Below, piece after piece: positions 8,835 to 15,805 of a stretch of DNA of 64,000 nucleotides. Location: assembly GCA_018434945.1 (NCBI GenBank), contig JAHDOI010000035.1:124001-188000 (forward strand), written 5' to 3'. The notes under the pieces were generated by a model. That model searched no databases. It had not been told where the DNA came from and worked only from the letters and a program-made list of their open reading frames with translations. Every line of letters starts with the position of its first letter. The first letter of the stretch is position 1. The position numbers and the translations under genes were made by a program. Origin of the DNA: Selenomonadales bacterium. GTDB taxonomy: Bacteria > Bacillota > Negativicutes > Sporomusales > UBA7701.

Positions 8835-10322
8835 TTATTTTGTGCGGCGGTGAAGGTCTTTTTCCTCCCTGGCGGCGGGGTTGTCGGGAGCGGTGGCGAC
8901 CGGGGCCTGGGCGGCATAGTGCTCTAAGAGTTTTGCTGACAGGCGCGGGTCGGTCATGGTGCCCGGTCCGCTGACACAGCCGCCCTGACAGGCCATGCCT
9001 TCGAGGAAGTTGGCATCAAGGGAGCCTTGCTGCATTTTGGCGAGGACGGCGTGGCAGTCGGCCAGCCCTTCCGCCCGCTGAGGTTTTACCACCGCGCCGG
9101 GCGACATGTGAGCGAGTGTGTCGAGGACGGCCTGGGTGACGCCACCGGCCCGGGCGAAGCCGATGCCGTCGCGCGAAGCGGCGGTGAGGTGCGCCCCGGC
9201 GTCTGTTTCGGCGACGTTGATGCCCGCGCCGACGAACATGGCGGCCAATTCTTCGAAGGTGAGGACGAAGTCGACGAGGTCCGGGTAGCGGAGGGCTTCG
9301 GCTTTCTTTGCTACACAAGGGCCGACGAATACTACCGCCGCTGACGGGTCTTCCTCCTTTACCGCTTTGGCGGCGGCGATCATCGGCGAAACGGTGGTGG
9401 AAACCCGTTCACTTGCATCCGGCAGATGTTTTTCGACCATGGTAACAAAGGCCGGACAGCAGGAGGTTGTGAGGAAAGGTTGCTCGGCCGGGACGGCGCG
9501 GGTGAATTCGCCGGCTTCGGCAAGCGCTACCGCGTCTGCGCCCAGGGCCACTTCCCTCACTGCGTGAAAACCGAGCCGGCCGATGGCGGCGATGATTTGT
9601 TCGGGTTTGACTTTCGGGCCGAATTGGCCGATAAAGGCCGGGGCAAGCAGGGCGTATACGCGGTGCCCGGCTTTGATCCGCCGGATGAGCTGGACGATCT
9701 CCGAGCGTTCGCTGATTGCCCCGAAAGGGCAGGCGACTTTGCAGGCGCCGCACTGCACGCACTTGTCGTAGTCGATGACCGCCCGGCGGTCGCTGCCGGC
9801 GACGATGGCTTTTAGGTCGCAGGCCCGCTCGCAGGGGCGGCTGATTTCGATTATCGCCCCGTAAGAGCAGGAGCGTTTGCACATGCCGCATTCGATACAG
9901 ATGGTTTTGTCGATGTAGGCGCGGTTTTGCACGACCATGATGGCTTTTTTCGGGCAGCTGGCGATGCAGTTATGCGCCAGGCAGTTGCGGCAGGCGTCGG
10001 TTACGAGGAATTTATCGATGGGACACCGGTCGCAGGCTTCGGGCAGCAGGTTAACCGCCGGCAGGTCGGCCCGTTCGCCGGCCAACGCCCGGCCGGCCGC
10101 CTCGCTGAGCGGGGTGCCGATGGGCTGGCTGAGGGCCATGTTGATGCGGTCTTTGAGGACGGCCCGTTCTTTATGGACACAGCAGCGGTAGCGGGGGCCG
10201 TCTTCGGAGACGACGGTGCCAAGGATGCCGGCGATGTTTTCTTCCAGAGTCCCTTCGAGAGCCAGGCGGCTGACTTCGGCCAGCACTTTCCGGCGGATTT
10301 TCGTTACTTCACTTACGTGCAT
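8835..10322 (-). CDS. [FeFe]-hydrogenase, monomeric group B type
   Basis: A 495-residue iron-hydrogenase catalytic-domain protein. The N-terminal third carries several Fe-S sites: DRCPIDKF, CRNCLAHNCIASCPKKA, CIECGMCKRSCSYGA and CVQCGACKVACPFGA. The H-cluster motifs follow in order: TSCCPAF (about residue 285), VFVGPCVAKK (about 333) and GMACQGGCVSGPG (about 445), so the four expected cluster Cys are present. The motifs differ from classical MPC/MACPGGC versions in the way seen in group B enzymes. It probably oxidises or makes H2 with ferredoxin, but the physiological direction is not known. It is the last gene of the operon. Maturases HydEFG are not in this window. Confidence 0.87.
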   Translation of the reverse strand: MHVSEVTKIRRKVLAEVSRLALEGTLEENIAGILGTVVSEDGPRYRCCVHKERAVLKDRINMALSQPIGTPLSEAAGRALAGERADLPAVNLLPEACDRCPIDKFLVTDACRNCLAHNCIASCPKKAIMVVQNRAYIDKTICIECGMCKRSCSYGAIIEISRPCERACDLKAIVAGSDRRAVIDYDKCVQCGACKVACPFGAISERSEIVQLIRRIKAGHRVYALLAPAFIGQFGPKVKPEQIIAAIGRLGFHAVREVALGADAVALAEAGEFTRAVPAEQPFLTTSCCPAFVTMVEKHLPDASERVSTTVSPMIAAAKAVKEEDPSAAVVFVGPCVAKKAEALRYPDLVDFVLTFEELAAMFVGAGINVAETDAGAHLTAASRDGIGFARAGGVTQAVLDTLAHMSPGAVVKPQRAEGLADCHAVLAKMQQGSLDANFLEGMACQGGCVSGPGTMTDPRLSAKLLEHYAAQAPVATAPDNPAAREEKDLHRRTK

Positions 10323-10337
10323 TTCTTCCTCCTGGTT

Positions 10338-10574
10338 TTATGGCAAGTTGTCTTCAATCACAGCTAAGATGCGGTCAGGGGTGATTTCCGACAGGACGAC
10401 GCCGTTTACCCTGGCGTTGGGGCCTTTGCGGCAGGTTTTGAGGCAGGTTACGCCCCGCAGGTCGATTTTGCCTCTTTTTTCGGGCGGCAGGGTCTCGATG
10501 GCGTCGAGGATGTCCTGGGAGCCCATGAGGTGACACGAGGTTCCCAGGCATATTTCTACGAGCAGCGTGGACAC
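10338..10574 (-). CDS. Thioredoxin-like [2Fe-2S] ferredoxin (NuoE/HoxE C-terminal type)
   Basis: A 78-residue thioredoxin-fold ferredoxin. The Cys pattern C-x4-C (EICLGTSCHL) then C-x3-C (GVTCLKTCRKGP) matches the [2Fe-2S] domain of NuoE-like subunits. The GTG at 10574 is chosen because AAGGAGG lies 9 bases upstream. The ATG at 10601 would overlap the phosphatase gene and has no site. It sits between the phosphatase and the group B hydrogenase (15-base gap), and probably carries electrons for one of the two hydrogenase proteins. A second, divergent copy opens the operon. Confidence 0.85.
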   Translation of the reverse strand: MSTLLVEICLGTSCHLMGSQDILDAIETLPPEKRGKIDLRGVTCLKTCRKGPNARVNGVVLSEITPDRILAVIEDNLP

Positions 10575-10591
10575 GCGGTATTTCCTCCTTG

Positions 10592-11743
10592 TCAGACCCA
10601 TTCCACCGTGACGCGTTTGCCGAGGTCTTCCAGGGCGTTGCGCAGGTTGGTCAGCACCTGGGCTTTGATATTTATCTGGGCGGGAAAATTGGGGTTCTGG
10701 TGGGCCGGGTTGACAGCGGTTCCGGCCAGTATGTCGATTCTGTCGGCCTCGTACAGCAATCTGGCAAGCAGGGTGGCGCCGTCGCGGCGGTTGGAGGAGC
10801 GCAGTTTGCGGATGTCATGGAGACGGCCGATGGCAGCCGTGATGGTGAGCACCCCTTCGGTGACGAGGTCGAGGTTGTCGATTCGGGCGATGGGAGGGAT
10901 CTCCGGGTCCTGGTATTCGAGGTCGACGTTTACGGGCAGCCCGAGGACGCGGCTGACGATGTTGGCGGTGGTGCCGCCGGCGACGATCTTCTTCCCCTCT
11001 CCGCTCATCAGGCGCTTTACGATCTGCTCGTCCATCTCGCGATTGGCGGGTGGGCCGGTCAACAGGGTGAGGTTGCGGGGACGGCGGAGCTTGATGACGA
11101 CGACGGTTGAGTCGTCGCCCGGCTGCCCGAGATAGTAGCCGTTGCAGCAGCCGAGGATGTGCTCGGCAATTTTTTCGGCATCGTCGGCCGGCGAACAGTT
11201 TGCCGCCAGTTCAGCGGATATCCCCGTCCAGTCCCAGCCGAGCTTGAGGAGGCCTCCAATCCCGGCATGGATGACGCCGTCGCTGACGGCGACGATGATG
11301 TCGCCTTCGCCGAGGAGGAGACGGCCTTCGCGTACGGCTTTGCCGCCGATGTTCTTGGCTTCGGTGGGAAAAGGCACGACCTGGCCGCCTCTGAAGAGGA
11401 AGGTGGTCGGGCTGTCGAATTCGACGACGGTTGCCATGCTGTCGGGGAGGAGTTTTATTATCTGGAGGGTGGAGTAGGCGATTTTCCTCTCCCGGCAAAC
11501 CGGCAGCGTTTCGGTTATCGTGGGGACGACTTCGGTGATGGGGACGTTCCTTTTAAGCAGCGATGATGTTATTTTGGTGGTGAGGGTGGCGAGGATGTTG
11601 GCTTTGACCCCGCTGCCAAGGCCGTCGGAGATGACGACGGTTGTGGCGGCTTCGGTGCGGGCGATCTCCACTTTGTCGCCGCACAGTTCCTCGCCGGCTT
11701 TGGAGAGCTGGGCGACGGCGATTTCCGGATATAGCCGGTTCAT
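10592..11743 (-). CDS. SpoIIE-type PPM serine phosphatase, hydrogenase-linked
   Basis: A 383-residue protein whose N-terminal 220 residues form a PP2C-like SpoIIE domain. The metal-binding Asp motifs are present in order: VISDGLGSG (near 40), VAVSDGVIHAG (near 152) and PGDDSTVVV (near 210). The C-terminal 160 residues are a separate domain with no membrane segments. SpoIIE-family phosphatases usually act on anti-anti-sigma factors, but no such partner is encoded nearby. The start overlaps the stop of the PAS-hydrogenase gene by one base, suggesting coupled synthesis. The likely role is output from an H2 or redox sensor; this is inference from context. Confidence 0.85.
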   Translation of the reverse strand: MNRLYPEIAVAQLSKAGEELCGDKVEIARTEAATTVVISDGLGSGVKANILATLTTKITSSLLKRNVPITEVVPTITETLPVCRERKIAYSTLQIIKLLPDSMATVVEFDSPTTFLFRGGQVVPFPTEAKNIGGKAVREGRLLLGEGDIIVAVSDGVIHAGIGGLLKLGWDWTGISAELAANCSPADDAEKIAEHILGCCNGYYLGQPGDDSTVVVIKLRRPRNLTLLTGPPANREMDEQIVKRLMSGEGKKIVAGGTTANIVSRVLGLPVNVDLEYQDPEIPPIARIDNLDLVTEGVLTITAAIGRLHDIRKLRSSNRRDGATLLARLLYEADRIDILAGTAVNPAHQNPNFPAQINIKAQVLTNLRNALEDLGKRVTVEWV

Positions 11744-13428
11744 CAGTTCTTGCCCTTCGCTTTCAGCAGGCTGACGAGTTCGAGCAGGGCCGCCTTGGTC
11801 TCGGCTGTCGTTTCACCCAGCAGGCCGGCGATTTCCTGGGCCACGTGCATCTGCTTATTGATTATTTCCGTGGCTTTCTCGACGGTTTGGAGCTTCATCT
11901 GTTCGAGTTCGCGGGCGTTTTTTTCCTGGACGGTGATATCGGTGAGGACGATTATTGCCAGGTCGTGCTCGGGCACGGGGATGATCGTCTGGTTGGCGAT
12001 GGTGCCGCCGGCAATGGAGACTCGCCGGTCGGTCATTTTTTCCCCTCTGGCGATCGCGGCGCTTATTTCCCGGCTATCGAGCACTTTGCCGAGTTTGCCG
12101 CCTTTGATGATTGCCTGGTGGTTGTTGAGCATCTTTTCGGCAGCGGGGTTGAATTCCTGGACGATCATTTTGCTGTCGACGACGATGATGGCGTTGAGGG
12201 AATGCTGGACGATGAAGTTGGCCAGCGATTCGGCTTTCGAGCGCATGTAAGGAACGCAGGTGTCGATTTCGGTAAGACCCTGACAGACGGCGATGGCCTT
12301 GTCGCGGCAGGAGTTGAAGCCGCAAGCTCCGCAGTTTTTTTCGTCTTCTTTGTTGTATTTGCCTGTCTGTCGCAGCACTTCGCGGATGCGGCTCTCGGGC
12401 GGGAGGTATTCCTGGACCGGCGCCTCGATATGGCGGCGGGAGAAATCGAGACCGGCAGGGCTTTTATGATGTCGGGCGGCGCCGGCGACGGCGAATTCGG
12501 CTACTTTGAGCCTCTTGGCGGGCACGGAGTCGGCGCAGCCGCTGGCCGGACCGTTGATACAGCCTCCGGAGCAGGCGAGGGCTTCGACGAAGCGCGGCGT
12601 GATCTCGCCTTTGCGGAGGGCGGCCAGGACTTCGAGGCAGTTGTCGAGGCCGTCGACGGCTATGATATCGGTGGCGGTGGATTCGCTGCGGACGAAGGAT
12701 TTTAAGATGCCGCCGGCGATGGGATAATAACGCACCGGCCCCGGCGCGGCAACGGCGGCCTCCCGGGGGGAAGTATCGCTGACAGGCTCTTCGGCCAGCC
12801 ATTGGCGAAGCTGACGGAATGTTATGGCGGCGTCGACGCGGCTCCCTGGATTCTGGCTCTCGGCCAGCTTGGCGATGCAGGGGCCGGCGAAGACGACGAA
12901 AGCGTCGGCCCCGAGACGGTTTTTGAGCATTTTGGCGTGGACGAGCATCGGCGAGTCTACGGGCGCAAGGTTGTCTATCAGGTCGGGGTAATATTTTGTC
13001 ACGACGTTGACGACTACCGGGCAGCAGGCGGAGATGACAGGTTTTTCTGCGGTCGTGAGCAGGCGGCTGTAAAACCGCGATACTTCTTCGGCGCCTACGG
13101 CCGTCTCTTCAACAAGATTGATGCCTAGACCGCCCAGTTTTGCCGCCAGTTGCGGCAGGGTATATTCAGGGAATGATGCTATGAAGGAGGGAGCGATGCT
13201 CATGGCGACGAAACGTCCGGCGGCGATGGCGGCTTTGACGTCCGCCACACAGCTGCTGACCTGCTTGGCACCCTGGGGGCATTCGACGACACAGCGGCCG
13301 CATAGTACGCATTTCTCATCAATGAGGCGGGCCTGCCCGTCAACTATCCCTACGGCTTTGAGGGGACACGACCGCATGCAGCGGTGGCAGTCGCGGCAGT
13401 TGGCCTTTTGGGTTGTGATCGTTTTCAT
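11743..13428 (-). CDS. Sensory [FeFe]-hydrogenase with PAS domain (HydS-like)
   Basis: A 561-residue fusion. In order: two 4Fe-4S sites (CRDCHRCMRSCPLKA and CVLCGRCVVECPQGA), an H-cluster domain with SACCPVV (about 134), FAGPCIAK (about 184) and LACSGGCINGPA (about 288), a further Cys-rich Fe-S module (CGACGFNSC, about 370), a PAS domain (about 400-510, NAIIVVDSKMIVQEFNPAAE) and a C-terminal coiled coil. This is the layout of the putative H2-sensing [FeFe] proteins (group C, HydS). The -ACCP- and -GPCIAK- variants are expected for that group. It overlaps the ferredoxin gene upstream by four bases and the phosphatase gene downstream by one. Confidence 0.87.
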   Translation of the reverse strand: MKTITTQKANCRDCHRCMRSCPLKAVGIVDGQARLIDEKCVLCGRCVVECPQGAKQVSSCVADVKAAIAAGRFVAMSIAPSFIASFPEYTLPQLAAKLGGLGINLVEETAVGAEEVSRFYSRLLTTAEKPVISACCPVVVNVVTKYYPDLIDNLAPVDSPMLVHAKMLKNRLGADAFVVFAGPCIAKLAESQNPGSRVDAAITFRQLRQWLAEEPVSDTSPREAAVAAPGPVRYYPIAGGILKSFVRSESTATDIIAVDGLDNCLEVLAALRKGEITPRFVEALACSGGCINGPASGCADSVPAKRLKVAEFAVAGAARHHKSPAGLDFSRRHIEAPVQEYLPPESRIREVLRQTGKYNKEDEKNCGACGFNSCRDKAIAVCQGLTEIDTCVPYMRSKAESLANFIVQHSLNAIIVVDSKMIVQEFNPAAEKMLNNHQAIIKGGKLGKVLDSREISAAIARGEKMTDRRVSIAGGTIANQTIIPVPEHDLAIIVLTDITVQEKNARELEQMKLQTVEKATEIINKQMHVAQEIAGLLGETTAETKAALLELVSLLKAKGKN

Positions 13429-13676
13429 CTTCCCCCACCTTTAAGCACTTTTTCCTGAAAGATTGCGAACACTTTCTCCTGGGAAACGTGGGTGATGATT
13501 TCGTCGTCGATTTTTATTACTACGCCTTCGGTACAGCGTCCCTGGCAAAAGTTCCCCTCAAGATCTATATCTGCTGACAACCGGTATTTTTCCAGGAGCG
13601 CGCTGAACGCGCCCAGAACGCCGTGCGCACCCTTAAGGTGACAGGCGCTGCCAATGCATATTGCGATTTTCATCAT
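13425..13676 (-). CDS. Thioredoxin-like [2Fe-2S] ferredoxin, first gene of hydrogenase operon
   Basis: An 83-residue paralog of the ferredoxin at 10338. It shows C-x4-C (ICIGSACHL) and C-x3-C (NFCQGRCTEG), matching a thioredoxin-like [2Fe-2S] fold. Two adjacent ATGs (13676, 13673) are possible. GGAG lies 5 and 8 bases upstream respectively, so the start is uncertain by one codon. The ATG at 13703 lies inside the Rex-like operator and is rejected. Its stop overlaps the start of the PAS-hydrogenase (ATGA), which makes it the likely electron partner of that sensor. Confidence 0.83.
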   Translation of the reverse strand: MMKIAICIGSACHLKGAHGVLGAFSALLEKYRLSADIDLEGNFCQGRCTEGVVIKIDDEIITHVSQEKVFAIFQEKVLKGGGR

Positions 13677-13687
13677 GGCGTCTCCAA

Positions 13688-13705
13688 TTGTGAAATATTT
13701 CACTT
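13688..13705. promoter_or_regulatory. Rex-like operator of the hydrogenase operon
   Basis: TTGTGAAATATTTCACTT contains the 14-bp palindrome GTGAAATATTTCAC. It matches the Rex consensus TTGTGAA-N4-TTCACAA at 16 of 18 positions. It lies just downstream of the promoter -10 box, where a bound repressor would block transcription. Rex represses fermentative and hydrogenase genes when NADH is low, so this would tie the operon to redox state. No rex gene is present in the window. Confidence 0.65.
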
Positions 13706-13721
13706 TGTTTTTCTACTCCTT

Positions 13722-13750
13722 ATTCTACTCTAAAAGCGCACCGATGACAA
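13722..13750 (-). promoter_or_regulatory. Sigma-A promoter of the hydrogenase operon
   Basis: Minus-strand TTGTCA (13750-13745), 17-base spacer, TAGAAT (13727-13722). Transcription would start about 40 bases before the first ferredoxin gene, with the Rex-like site in between. Confidence 0.75.
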
Positions 13751-13772: not shown

Positions 13773-13798
13773 AGAGCCGGAAAAGGCTTTCCGGCTCT
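13773..13798 (-). terminator. Terminator of the chemoreceptor gene
   Basis: An 11-bp stem (AGAGCCGGAAA and complement) with a 4-base loop, 16 bases beyond the chemoreceptor stop. The downstream minus-strand tail is only partly T-rich. Confidence 0.65.
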
Positions 13799-13813: not shown

Positions 13814-15805
13814 CTAGATTCGGAATCTTGTGACGAGTGCTTGCAGTTCGCCGGCCATGGTGGCTAGGGAGTTGGCGGCGCCGGCGATCTCCTCCATGGA
13901 GGCGGTGATTTCTTCGGTGGCAGCGGCGGTTGTCTCGGCGTTGGCACTCGATTGGCGGGCGATGACGGCAACCTGCTCGGTGCCCTGTACCATTTCCCGC
14001 ATGCCTTCAGCCTGTTCTTTGGCGGCGGTGCTGATCGCTTCGATCATGTCGACGCTGCCGGTGACCTTGCCGAGGATGTTTTGGAGAGCATCGCCGGCGG
14101 TCTGCACGACCCCCACTCCTTCGTTGACTTTGAGGTTGCCGCTGTTCATGGCGTTGATCGCCTGGTCGGTCTGGGCCTGGATTTCACGCACGATCAAAGA
14201 TATCTGCTGAGCGGCTTCCTGAGATTGTTCGGCCAGTTTGCGCACTTCTTCGGCAACTACGGCGAAGCCGCGCCCCTGTTCACCGGCCCGCGCCGCTTCG
14301 ATTGCCGCATTAAGCGCGAGTAGGTTAGTCTGGCCAGCTATTTCGCTGATTACGTCGAGAATCTGACCGATTTGTTGGCTCTTCTCGCCAAGCCCGGTTA
14401 CGACTTCGCCGGTGGCTGTCGTTACTGCTCTGATTTCGTTCATTTTGTCGACGGCACTCTGTGCGGCGCCACCGCCGGTTTTCGCCGCGTCGGCCATTTC
14501 TGTCGACAGTTCGGTGGCTGTGCGGGCTTTTTCCGCCACCGCCTGGGAGGCTTCCGTGAGTTGGTCCACAGTTTGCAAGGTTTTTTCGATTTCTTCGGTC
14601 TGGCTGTGGGCACCTTGGGCAAAGTCGGTGATCGTGGCCGCTATCTGGTTTATCGCGCGCTCGGCTTCGACCGATGTGGCGGAAAGTTCCTGGGCGGACG
14701 CGGCTACCTGATCGGCGGTGTTCATGACTCCTCTGATCAGGTTCTGGAGGTTGTCCACCATGGCGTTGAAGGCCTGGGCAAGCTGGCCGAGTTCATCACG
14801 GGCGGTCACGTTGACTTTTACGGTGAGGTCGCCGGCGGCGAGCCGGTCGGTGGCTGCGACCATTTCTCTGATCGGTCTGGTCAGGAATCCGGCGGCGAAG
14901 AGGCCGGCTAGCGCGGCCAGGAGGATGCCGCCCACGGTGAAGGCGATGCCGGTGTTGCGGATCTTGACTACGCCGGCCATGGCCTCGTCTAAGGGCTGTT
15001 GGGCGACAACGCCCCATTTAGCCATCGGCACGAAGCTGTAGCCGGCAAGTTTCTTTGCACCTTCGTACTCGTACTCGGTAACGCCGGCTTGTCCGGCGAT
15101 TGCGGCTTTGACCGGCGCCAGCGCGCTCAGGTCGACCATCTCTTTGACGAGTTTTTGGTCAGGATGGGCGACGACGCTGCCATTTTTGTCGACGACGAAG
15201 GCGTAGCCGCTGTTACCGATTTTGGTTTGCATGATATGGTTGCTAAGGTAGTTAAGGTCAACGACGCCTAGTAGTATGCCGATGGGGGTTCGTTGATCCC
15301 CGGTGATGGGGACGGCGAGGATGACGGAGGCTTGTCCCGTGCCTTTGGCGATAAGGACATCGGATACTACCGCGGCTGCCCCGCCCTGCATGACTTCTTT
15401 GAAATAAGCCCGGTCGGCAATGTTGCCGAGCTTCCCTTCGGTGCGCACGGTTTGTACGCCGGTGGGCAGGGCAACGATAAGCCCGGGCATGTCGTGGTAC
15501 TGCTTGGCGATGTTGCGCATTGCAGGCAGTTGCCGCGCGATATCCATCGACTTGATCTCCGGGCTGCTGGCGGCAATGGTGAGTACCTTTATTTTAGCTT
15601 CAAGCATTGCGTCTATTTCGCTTGCAAGCGCATTTGCTGTCATCTGATTGTTGCTATAGACGCCGTTGACAAGGGCCTGGTTACTGAAGTAGGAGGAAAC
15701 CATGGCGGAAAGTACCAGCGGGATGGCAGCAATCAGGACAAACAGCAGCATCAATTTCTTTTTCATGTCCATACCACCAAGAGTAGATTTTCCCATAGTT
15801 GCCAT
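13814..15805 (-). CDS. Methyl-accepting chemotaxis protein, Cache-type
   Basis: A 663-residue chemoreceptor. The order is: TM1 (about residues 15-38), a periplasmic/extracellular double-Cache-like sensing region (about 40-285, with [17 protein letters not shown]), TM2 (about 290-312), HAMP ([20 protein letters not shown]), then a long coiled-coil signalling domain with the conserved hairpin tip [18 protein letters not shown]. The ligand is unknown. The far upstream start at 15805 is kept because the near-perfect Shine-Dalgarno AAGGGGTGATC sits 7 bases before it. An internal ATG gives the more usual MKKK start. No che genes are adjacent. Confidence 0.94.

Follow-up and report, generated by a model that had tools for sequence, protein, structure and literature searches.

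Known systems and the locus examined here

HydDB lists group C3 [FeFe]-hydrogenases as “phosphatase-linked (putative)”, that is, as sensory group C enzymes encoded with a serine/threonine phosphatase (PMC5037454). We analysed an operon of this kind in a 64,000-nucleotide stretch of the genome of a Selenomonadales bacterium (GCA_018434945.1, contig JAHDOI010000035.1, positions 124,001 to 188,000; this whole stretch is termed the window). Five open reading frames, all on the minus strand, encode a ferredoxin (fdx1), a PAS-containing sensory hydrogenase (HydS), a SpoIIE-type phosphatase, a second ferredoxin (fdx2) and a group B hydrogenase, in the order that a first-pass annotation of the window had given. 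The locus carries the features of the C3 (M2f) class, namely the H-cluster ligands, a Cx2Cx4Cx16C motif, a PAS region assigned by homology and a neighboring phosphatase gene.

The hfsABCD operon of Thermoanaerobacterium shows the same order of small protein, PAS-hydrogenase, serine phosphatase and hydrogenase (PMC5707799, PMC11837493). Its last gene, compared here by description only, is ferredoxin-linked and is likened to HydA2 of Ruminococcus albus, which we take to be group A; in contrast, the last gene in the window belongs to group B and is preceded by the second ferredoxin gene. The HydS of R. albus is likewise described as a putative sensory group C hydrogenase with a PAS domain and a putative Ser/Thr phosphatase, but it lies in an eight-gene cluster with a group A1 hydrogenase and an alcohol/aldehyde dehydrogenase (PMC6776011). 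In Vallitalea guaymasensis, a C3 gene (peg.96) and a group B gene (peg.98) are two loci apart, a pairing like that of the window (PMC6163223). A likeness of another sort is found in RsbP and RsbU of Bacillus subtilis, which join a PAS or other head through a helical linker to a PPM phosphatase, and for which linker-driven activation and exchange of PAS, HAMP and receiver heads are described (PMC12143880). In RsbP, head, linker and phosphatase form a single chain, whereas in the window the head with its tail is one protein and the phosphatase another, with a C-terminal domain that is extra relative to RsbP and RsbU.

The operon type has thus been described before, and the idea of phosphatase coupling was stated by HydDB for group C3 (PMC5037454). 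What we add is evidence on how sensor and phosphatase are coupled and a signaling joint that can now be tested; relative to the HydDB account, the tail motif, the C-terminal domain of the phosphatase and the proposed mechanism are additions. No description of the tail motif, of PAS-only partners, of this C-terminal domain or of a sigma-54-fused sensory hydrogenase was found in the open-licence literature searched, and nothing on the operon was found in PMC4342158. The route of signal output from putative sensory [FeFe]-hydrogenases is stated to be unknown (PMC11376134), and finding an interaction partner has been called critical for a group D case (PMC13104023). The near-obligate pairing reported below points to the phosphatase as the partner of HydS and narrows the joint to a short tail. 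Since deletion of hfsB alters ethanol yield (PMC5707799), this joint also bears on biofuel strains.

HydS and the phosphatase are near-obligate neighbors, probably joined through a conserved tail

We surveyed an evenly drawn sample of 398 genomes from the phylum with profiles of the phosphatase and of the HydS C-terminus. The phosphatase profile gave 142 matches in 121 genomes, and the HydS profile matched in 130 genomes at E ≤ 1e-20. A HydS C-terminus lies directly upstream and on the same strand in 139 of the 142 phosphatase matches, with a median gap of 17 bases, and a phosphatase gene lies downstream in 139 of the 141 HydS matches counted. Two of the three exceptions (in G234 and G380) are phosphatase pieces on fragmented contigs without a HydS gene, the piece in G380 beginning at the contig end.

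The shared element is a 32-residue tail of HydS (aa 520-551; 11776..11871, minus strand) with the consensus ..QMxVAQEIAxLLGETTAETKxxLxxL.., which we propose is a phosphatase-docking element. In an alignment of the window HydS with 73 relatives (n = 74), no part of the protein is better conserved than the tail, whose mean consensus is 0.85; the C-terminal iron-sulfur part reaches 0.66, the H-domain 0.51 and the PAS region 0.42. With a 42-position profile built from only the tail, we obtained 140 matches at E ≤ 0.001 in 119 of the surveyed genomes, and 138 of these matches lie immediately ahead of a phosphatase gene. All 119 genomes are among the 121 that have the phosphatase, and none carries the tail without it. 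Among the profile matches of the two in these genomes, we saw no single protein in which tail and phosphatase are naturally fused. The first-pass annotation had suggested that the PAS-hydrogenase signals through the phosphatase; near-obligate adjacency, an exclusive tail, and the retention of tail and phosphatase where the H-domain is missing (see below) strongly support such a dedicated link between two near-inseparable partners, which are probably joined through the tail.

We therefore favor, with a probability of roughly 0.6, a reading in which fdx1, HydS and the phosphatase constitute a phosphatase-linked signaling system (group C3, hfs-type) built on a pair of proteins, with the tail of one acting in trans on the other. 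It is also conceivable that the tail is a substrate or pseudo-substrate, such that a kinase phosphorylates a threonine in GETTAETK and the phosphatase resets the sensor. The one-to-one pairing of tail and phosphatase would fit, as would the retention of T540 and T544 in 0.99, and of T541 in 0.93, of the 74 HydS sequences. However, this threonine pattern suits a helix cap too, and the invariant non-threonine residues (QM, IA and LLGE) point to an interface. Moreover, we clustered the open reading frames of 80 named loci, which rank highest among at least 576 confirmed relatives and are a set biased to close ones; no kinase or STAS gene was found to recur beside the operon in these loci. The recurrent neighbors are fdx1, HydS, the phosphatase and hydrogenase subunits, together with what we take to be Rex-like (10 loci) and AdhE-like (6 loci) genes, all cluster names being assigned from sequence starts. 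We consider a substrate role of the tail decidedly unlikely.

Two observations concern irregular gene structures. In one locus (L173; G354:C124), two tail-bearing HydS genes, with a ferredoxin gene between them, precede a single phosphatase gene. In three genomes the phosphatase gene is split, and we asked whether the pieces represent separate domains; the break sites differ, at least two lie inside the C-terminal domain, and decay or sequence error is thus the likelier explanation.

Different heads carry the same tail

In every one of the 80 named loci, the gene before the phosphatase encodes a protein with the tail. This protein is a full HydS in 73, is cut by a contig end in three, and lacks the H-domain in four. 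Three of the latter (L136 from Spirochaetes, L137 and L163 from Planctomycetota) encode proteins of ∼170 residues that consist of PAS and tail, and in L136 and L163 CO dehydrogenase-type and NuoE/NuoG-like genes are nearby. The fourth (L149, Desulfomonilaceae) encodes an sCache-HAMP-receiver-PAS-tail protein. The PAS-only loci group together in the phosphatase tree (support 100/97), beside a HydS-bearing Planctomycetota locus, and L149 stands apart with weak support; this topology is in keeping with two or more head changes.

The hydrogenase head is in turn found on other outputs. The H-domain, iron-sulfur and PAS head is fused to HisKA and HATPase_c domains in a histidine-kinase version (L174:3960-6353, minus strand), and to a sigma-54 activator with a helix-turn-helix domain in another protein, adjoined by NuoE/NuoF-like genes (L172:2902-5523, minus strand). 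We did not find the latter type of fusion among the HydDB group C classes (PMC5037454). Since the same head is elsewhere fused to a kinase or a sigma-54 activator, the tail occupies the position of an output domain. A further protein (L179:2711-5278, minus strand) resembles the sigma-54 fusion by its ends.

These arrangements suggest a split modular family, in which the tail would connect interchangeable heads to a single dedicated PPM phosphatase whose Rossmann domain binds a ligand; we judge this generalization to have about even odds. The heads would be an H-cluster hydrogenase, a lone PAS domain encoded near CO dehydrogenase genes, and a membrane-bound sCache-HAMP-receiver-PAS protein. If so, HydS would be one input to a general system in which sensors and outputs are paired one to one, and H2 signaling would run through tail-driven control of the phosphatase in trans.

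The phosphatase lacks a linker of its own

The phosphatase (383 aa, in the position of hfsC; 10592..11743, minus strand) matches the SpoIIE profile PF07228 with 58 bits (cut-off 25). Its metal motifs, already noted in the first-pass annotation, are borne out: D23, D40-G41, D155-G156 and D210-D211 are invariant in all 52 aligned sequences. In a structure model predicted from these sequences (predicted local distance difference test, pLDDT, of 90.7), residues 1-224 match SpoIIE (5ucg) with a Z score of 25.5 and a root-mean-square deviation (rmsd) of 2.8 over 215 aligned residues. The SpoIIE profile match starts at residue 4 and the first strand of the model at residue 5, which leaves no linker helix. 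An N-terminal sensor and linker in the same chain, as in RsbU and RsbP, are not present, and the upstream protein is the head; the phosphatase may nonetheless function in the manner of RsbU and RsbP. Invariant residues (G43, S44, G45, K47, A48, I50, L51 and T55; T79, L80, P81, C83 and R86) crowd around helices 46-64 and 69-79, which we take to occupy the position of the switch element of the RsbU study (PMC12143880).

The C-terminal domain (aa 222-383; 10595..11080, minus strand) is modeled as Rossmann-like (pLDDT 91.8), with weak fold matches only. It has no Pfam match at E ≤ 10 for the window domain, its best PDB sequence-profile match reaches only E 0.23, and Foldseek returned no match at E ≤ 0.001. 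VIA-align gave Z scores of up to 9.2, with an rmsd of 3.1 over 115 residues (6s6y_F), and its top rows come mostly from the formylmethanofuran dehydrogenase/NuoG/formate dehydrogenase group. We read these matches only as a Rossmann-like arrangement and reject assignment to a known family. In the 52 sequences GPP, GG, E75-G76, T79 and N124 (domain numbering) are invariant, and GPP, GG, EG and N fall at loop positions of the model. The domain is therefore likely to bind a ligand, to judge by the modeled placement of these residues.

In the mechanism we propose, HydS is the sensor, its H-cluster either meeting H2 or becoming reduced through ferredoxin-type clusters, with fdx1 as one likely electron partner. 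The resulting change would pass through the C-terminal [4Fe-4S] domain and the PAS region to the tail, which would supply in trans the linker that the phosphatase lacks, docking near the switch helices alpha1/alpha2 and setting phosphatase activity. The pair would thus correspond to an RsbP-like PAS-linker-PPM protein cut between linker and PPM. The phosphatase would then dephosphorylate a serine/threonine phosphoprotein, and a small ligand bound to its Rossmann-like domain probably adjusts its activity. What we observe is the gene content, the exclusive pairing, the conserved tail, the exchange of heads and the intact ligands; docking, the sense in which control runs, the role of H2 as signal, the substrate and the ligand are the steps that we infer.

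Regulation by hfsA/hfsB is consistent with the higher adhE transcript and ethanol levels reported upon their deletion (PMC5707799). Several observations nonetheless weigh against the proposed scheme. In genome G032, a phosphatase gene (L167:5590-6726, minus strand) is an orphan without any tail protein; its upstream neighbor is a DUF3810 protein, and the start of its active site reads ELSRD in place of the family's ELCGD. Exposure to 1 atm H2 did not reduce the C-terminal [4Fe-4S] cluster of a group D relative (PMC13104023), which argues against a simple electron relay to PAS; if the window HydS behaves in the same way, the signal would be conformational. In T. thermosaccharolyticum, hfsD by itself in an hfsABCD deletion background yields the high-ethanol phenotype (PMC11837493), so that the hfsC phosphatase is not needed for the ethanol effect. 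Finally, the position equivalent to C299 varies among the 74 HydS proteins (39 have Cys, 14 Ser, 13 Ala and 8 other residues), from which it appears that properties differ within the family. The window protein keeps the cysteine (C135), and the equivalent residue is stated not to be conserved in the M2e and M2f subclasses (PMC8163306).

HydS retains the ligands of the H-cluster

HydS (561 aa; 11743..13428, minus strand) is composed of a ferredoxin part, the H-domain, a C-terminal iron-sulfur part, the PAS region and the tail. The H-domain (aa 74-294; 12547..13209, minus strand) was delimited by PF02906 and aligned to CpI and HydA1, and its H-cluster cysteines are C136, C184, C286 and C290. It is followed by a [4Fe-4S] motif, Cx2Cx4Cx16C (C366, C369, C374 and C391, within aa 364-393; 12250..12339, minus strand; PF04060), the spacing of which is that stated for group C and D enzymes (PMC8163306). 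Each of the 74 HydS proteins has all four of these H-cluster ligands as well as the Cx2Cx4Cx16C motif. Glycine replaces the equivalent of CpI Met353 in 73 of the 74, as is reported for TmHydS (PMC8163306). The PAS region (∼aa 404-505; 11914..12219, minus strand) is poorly conserved and received no Pfam call in the window protein; it is labeled PAS because Pfam calls this domain in the short PAS-only homologs and because a partial NtrB-type match was found.

The host genome encodes nine H-domain proteins and HydG (652.6 bits). The intact H-cluster ligands and the presence of HydG make H2 sensing by HydS plausible. It is also possible that HydS reads redox state, as reduced ferredoxin delivered by fdx1, and that the H-domain serves as a modified electron sink. 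Such a role would account for the near-constant presence of fdx1, which lies upstream of HydS in 72 of the 80 named loci (E ≤ 1e-5), for the like behavior of hfsA and hfsB deletions in T. saccharolyticum (PMC5707799), and for the existence of PAS-only heads that have no H-cluster. Full conservation of the four cysteines, along with an encoded HydG, speaks against it, and we hold redox reading to be a tentative option, somewhat short of even odds.

Search for a substrate

The first-pass annotation had reported no visible anti-sigma partner, which is correct locally. Elsewhere in the host genome we found three STAS proteins of the SpoIIAA/RsbV type, each encoded near its own HATPase_c_2 kinase. 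Like SpoIIE and RsbU, the operon phosphatase might act on such a protein and hence on a sigma factor, and its catalytic domain is indeed closest to SpoIIE-type phosphatases. None of the three STAS genes is near the operon, however, and two of them are also near SpoIIE-type phosphatases of their own. With a kinase of its own encoded near each of the three, no STAS protein stands out as an orphan substrate, and we regard a STAS target as unlikely, although cross-talk may occur.

One HATPase_c_2 kinase gene has no STAS partner (L210:5217-5648, plus strand; G000:C26). Its neighbors on either side appear to be genes for a DRTGG-like protein and a small, group D-like H-domain hydrogenase. This gene is a possible orphan kinase for the phosphatase. 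A second NuoE/NuoF/HydA-like cluster with an fdx1-like ferredoxin lies near a trio of STAS, HATPase_c_2 and SpoIIE genes (L208; G000:C31:46000-62000). Another SpoIIE-type phosphatase (27% identical) is encoded on the same contig as the operon, ∼13 kb away (L052:9115-9744, minus strand; G000:C72:121115-121744).

The group B hydrogenase gene and fdx2 are variable

Within the order, the window phosphatase has matches in 20 of 28 genomes, in 18 of them full-length at ≥60% identity. fdx1, HydS and the phosphatase occur together in all 18 of these orthologous loci, and the arrangement is therefore not a matter of chance. The group B gene follows the phosphatase in only 12 of the 18 and fdx2 was detected in nine. 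A conserved neighbor (cluster 3, which we take to be yebC) is close by in most of the orthologous loci, and this suggests that the operon was inherited vertically and that its last genes were lost in some lineages. We propose that the last two genes, for fdx2 and the group B hydrogenase, encode an exchangeable, co-transcribed metabolic cargo, a view that we favor as part of the overall explanation above.

The first-pass annotation had suggested that the pair might control the group B enzyme. The two share an operon here and in the 12 orthologous loci, and the group B gene is directly downstream of the phosphatase in 33 of the 80 named loci. Yet six of the 18 orthologous loci keep fdx1, HydS and the phosphatase without a group B gene, other loci have a NuoEF/HydA-type cluster next, and PAS-only versions are found by CO dehydrogenase genes. 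The group B enzyme is for this reason disfavored as sole target, and we find it very improbable that the pair exists for its control.

In two genomes of one genus (G015 and G010), remnants with internal deletions join the start of HydS to the end of the phosphatase (L050:2182-2652 and L051:8001-8664). Because they are broken at different points and only one keeps the reading frame, we rejected them as functional fusions and read them as decay. Genome G026 also has a diverged copy of the locus at 35-40% identity (L049:4569-9137, plus strand), in the order hydrogenase, ferredoxin, HydS, phosphatase.

Remaining genes, junctions and flanking signals

Both ferredoxins are of the thioredoxin-like [2Fe-2S] type, 87-92 residues in length, and match PF01257 in profile searches. 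fdx1 is the first gene, in the position of hfsA (13425..13703, minus strand), and fdx2 belongs to the variable part of the operon (10338..10601, minus strand). The last gene, also variable (8835..10322, minus strand), encodes a monomeric hydrogenase of group B1, scoring 576.1 bits against TIGR04105 (cut-off 450) and below the group A cut-off (TIGR02512, 156.4 bits versus 405.95). PF02906 matches this protein as well as HydS. The four-base and one-base overlaps claimed in the first-pass annotation hold at the first two junctions only; the third junction overlaps by 10 bases, given the listed ATG, and is followed by a gap of 15 bases.

Directly upstream of the operon, a promoter-like site (TTGTCA-17-TAGAAT, 10/12; 13722..13750, minus strand) precedes fdx1, and a terminator-like hairpin of 11 pairs (13773..13798, minus strand) lies between the operon and a chemoreceptor gene. 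Both sites are consensus matches only, and terminator-like sites show no excess in the window (8 found versus 8.4 in shuffles). With these two sites just upstream, the operon looks separate from the chemoreceptor gene (13814-15805, minus strand), which is its immediate upstream neighbor. Of the 21 loci examined, 7 have relatives of this gene (cluster 14), and it may be more than a chance neighbor.

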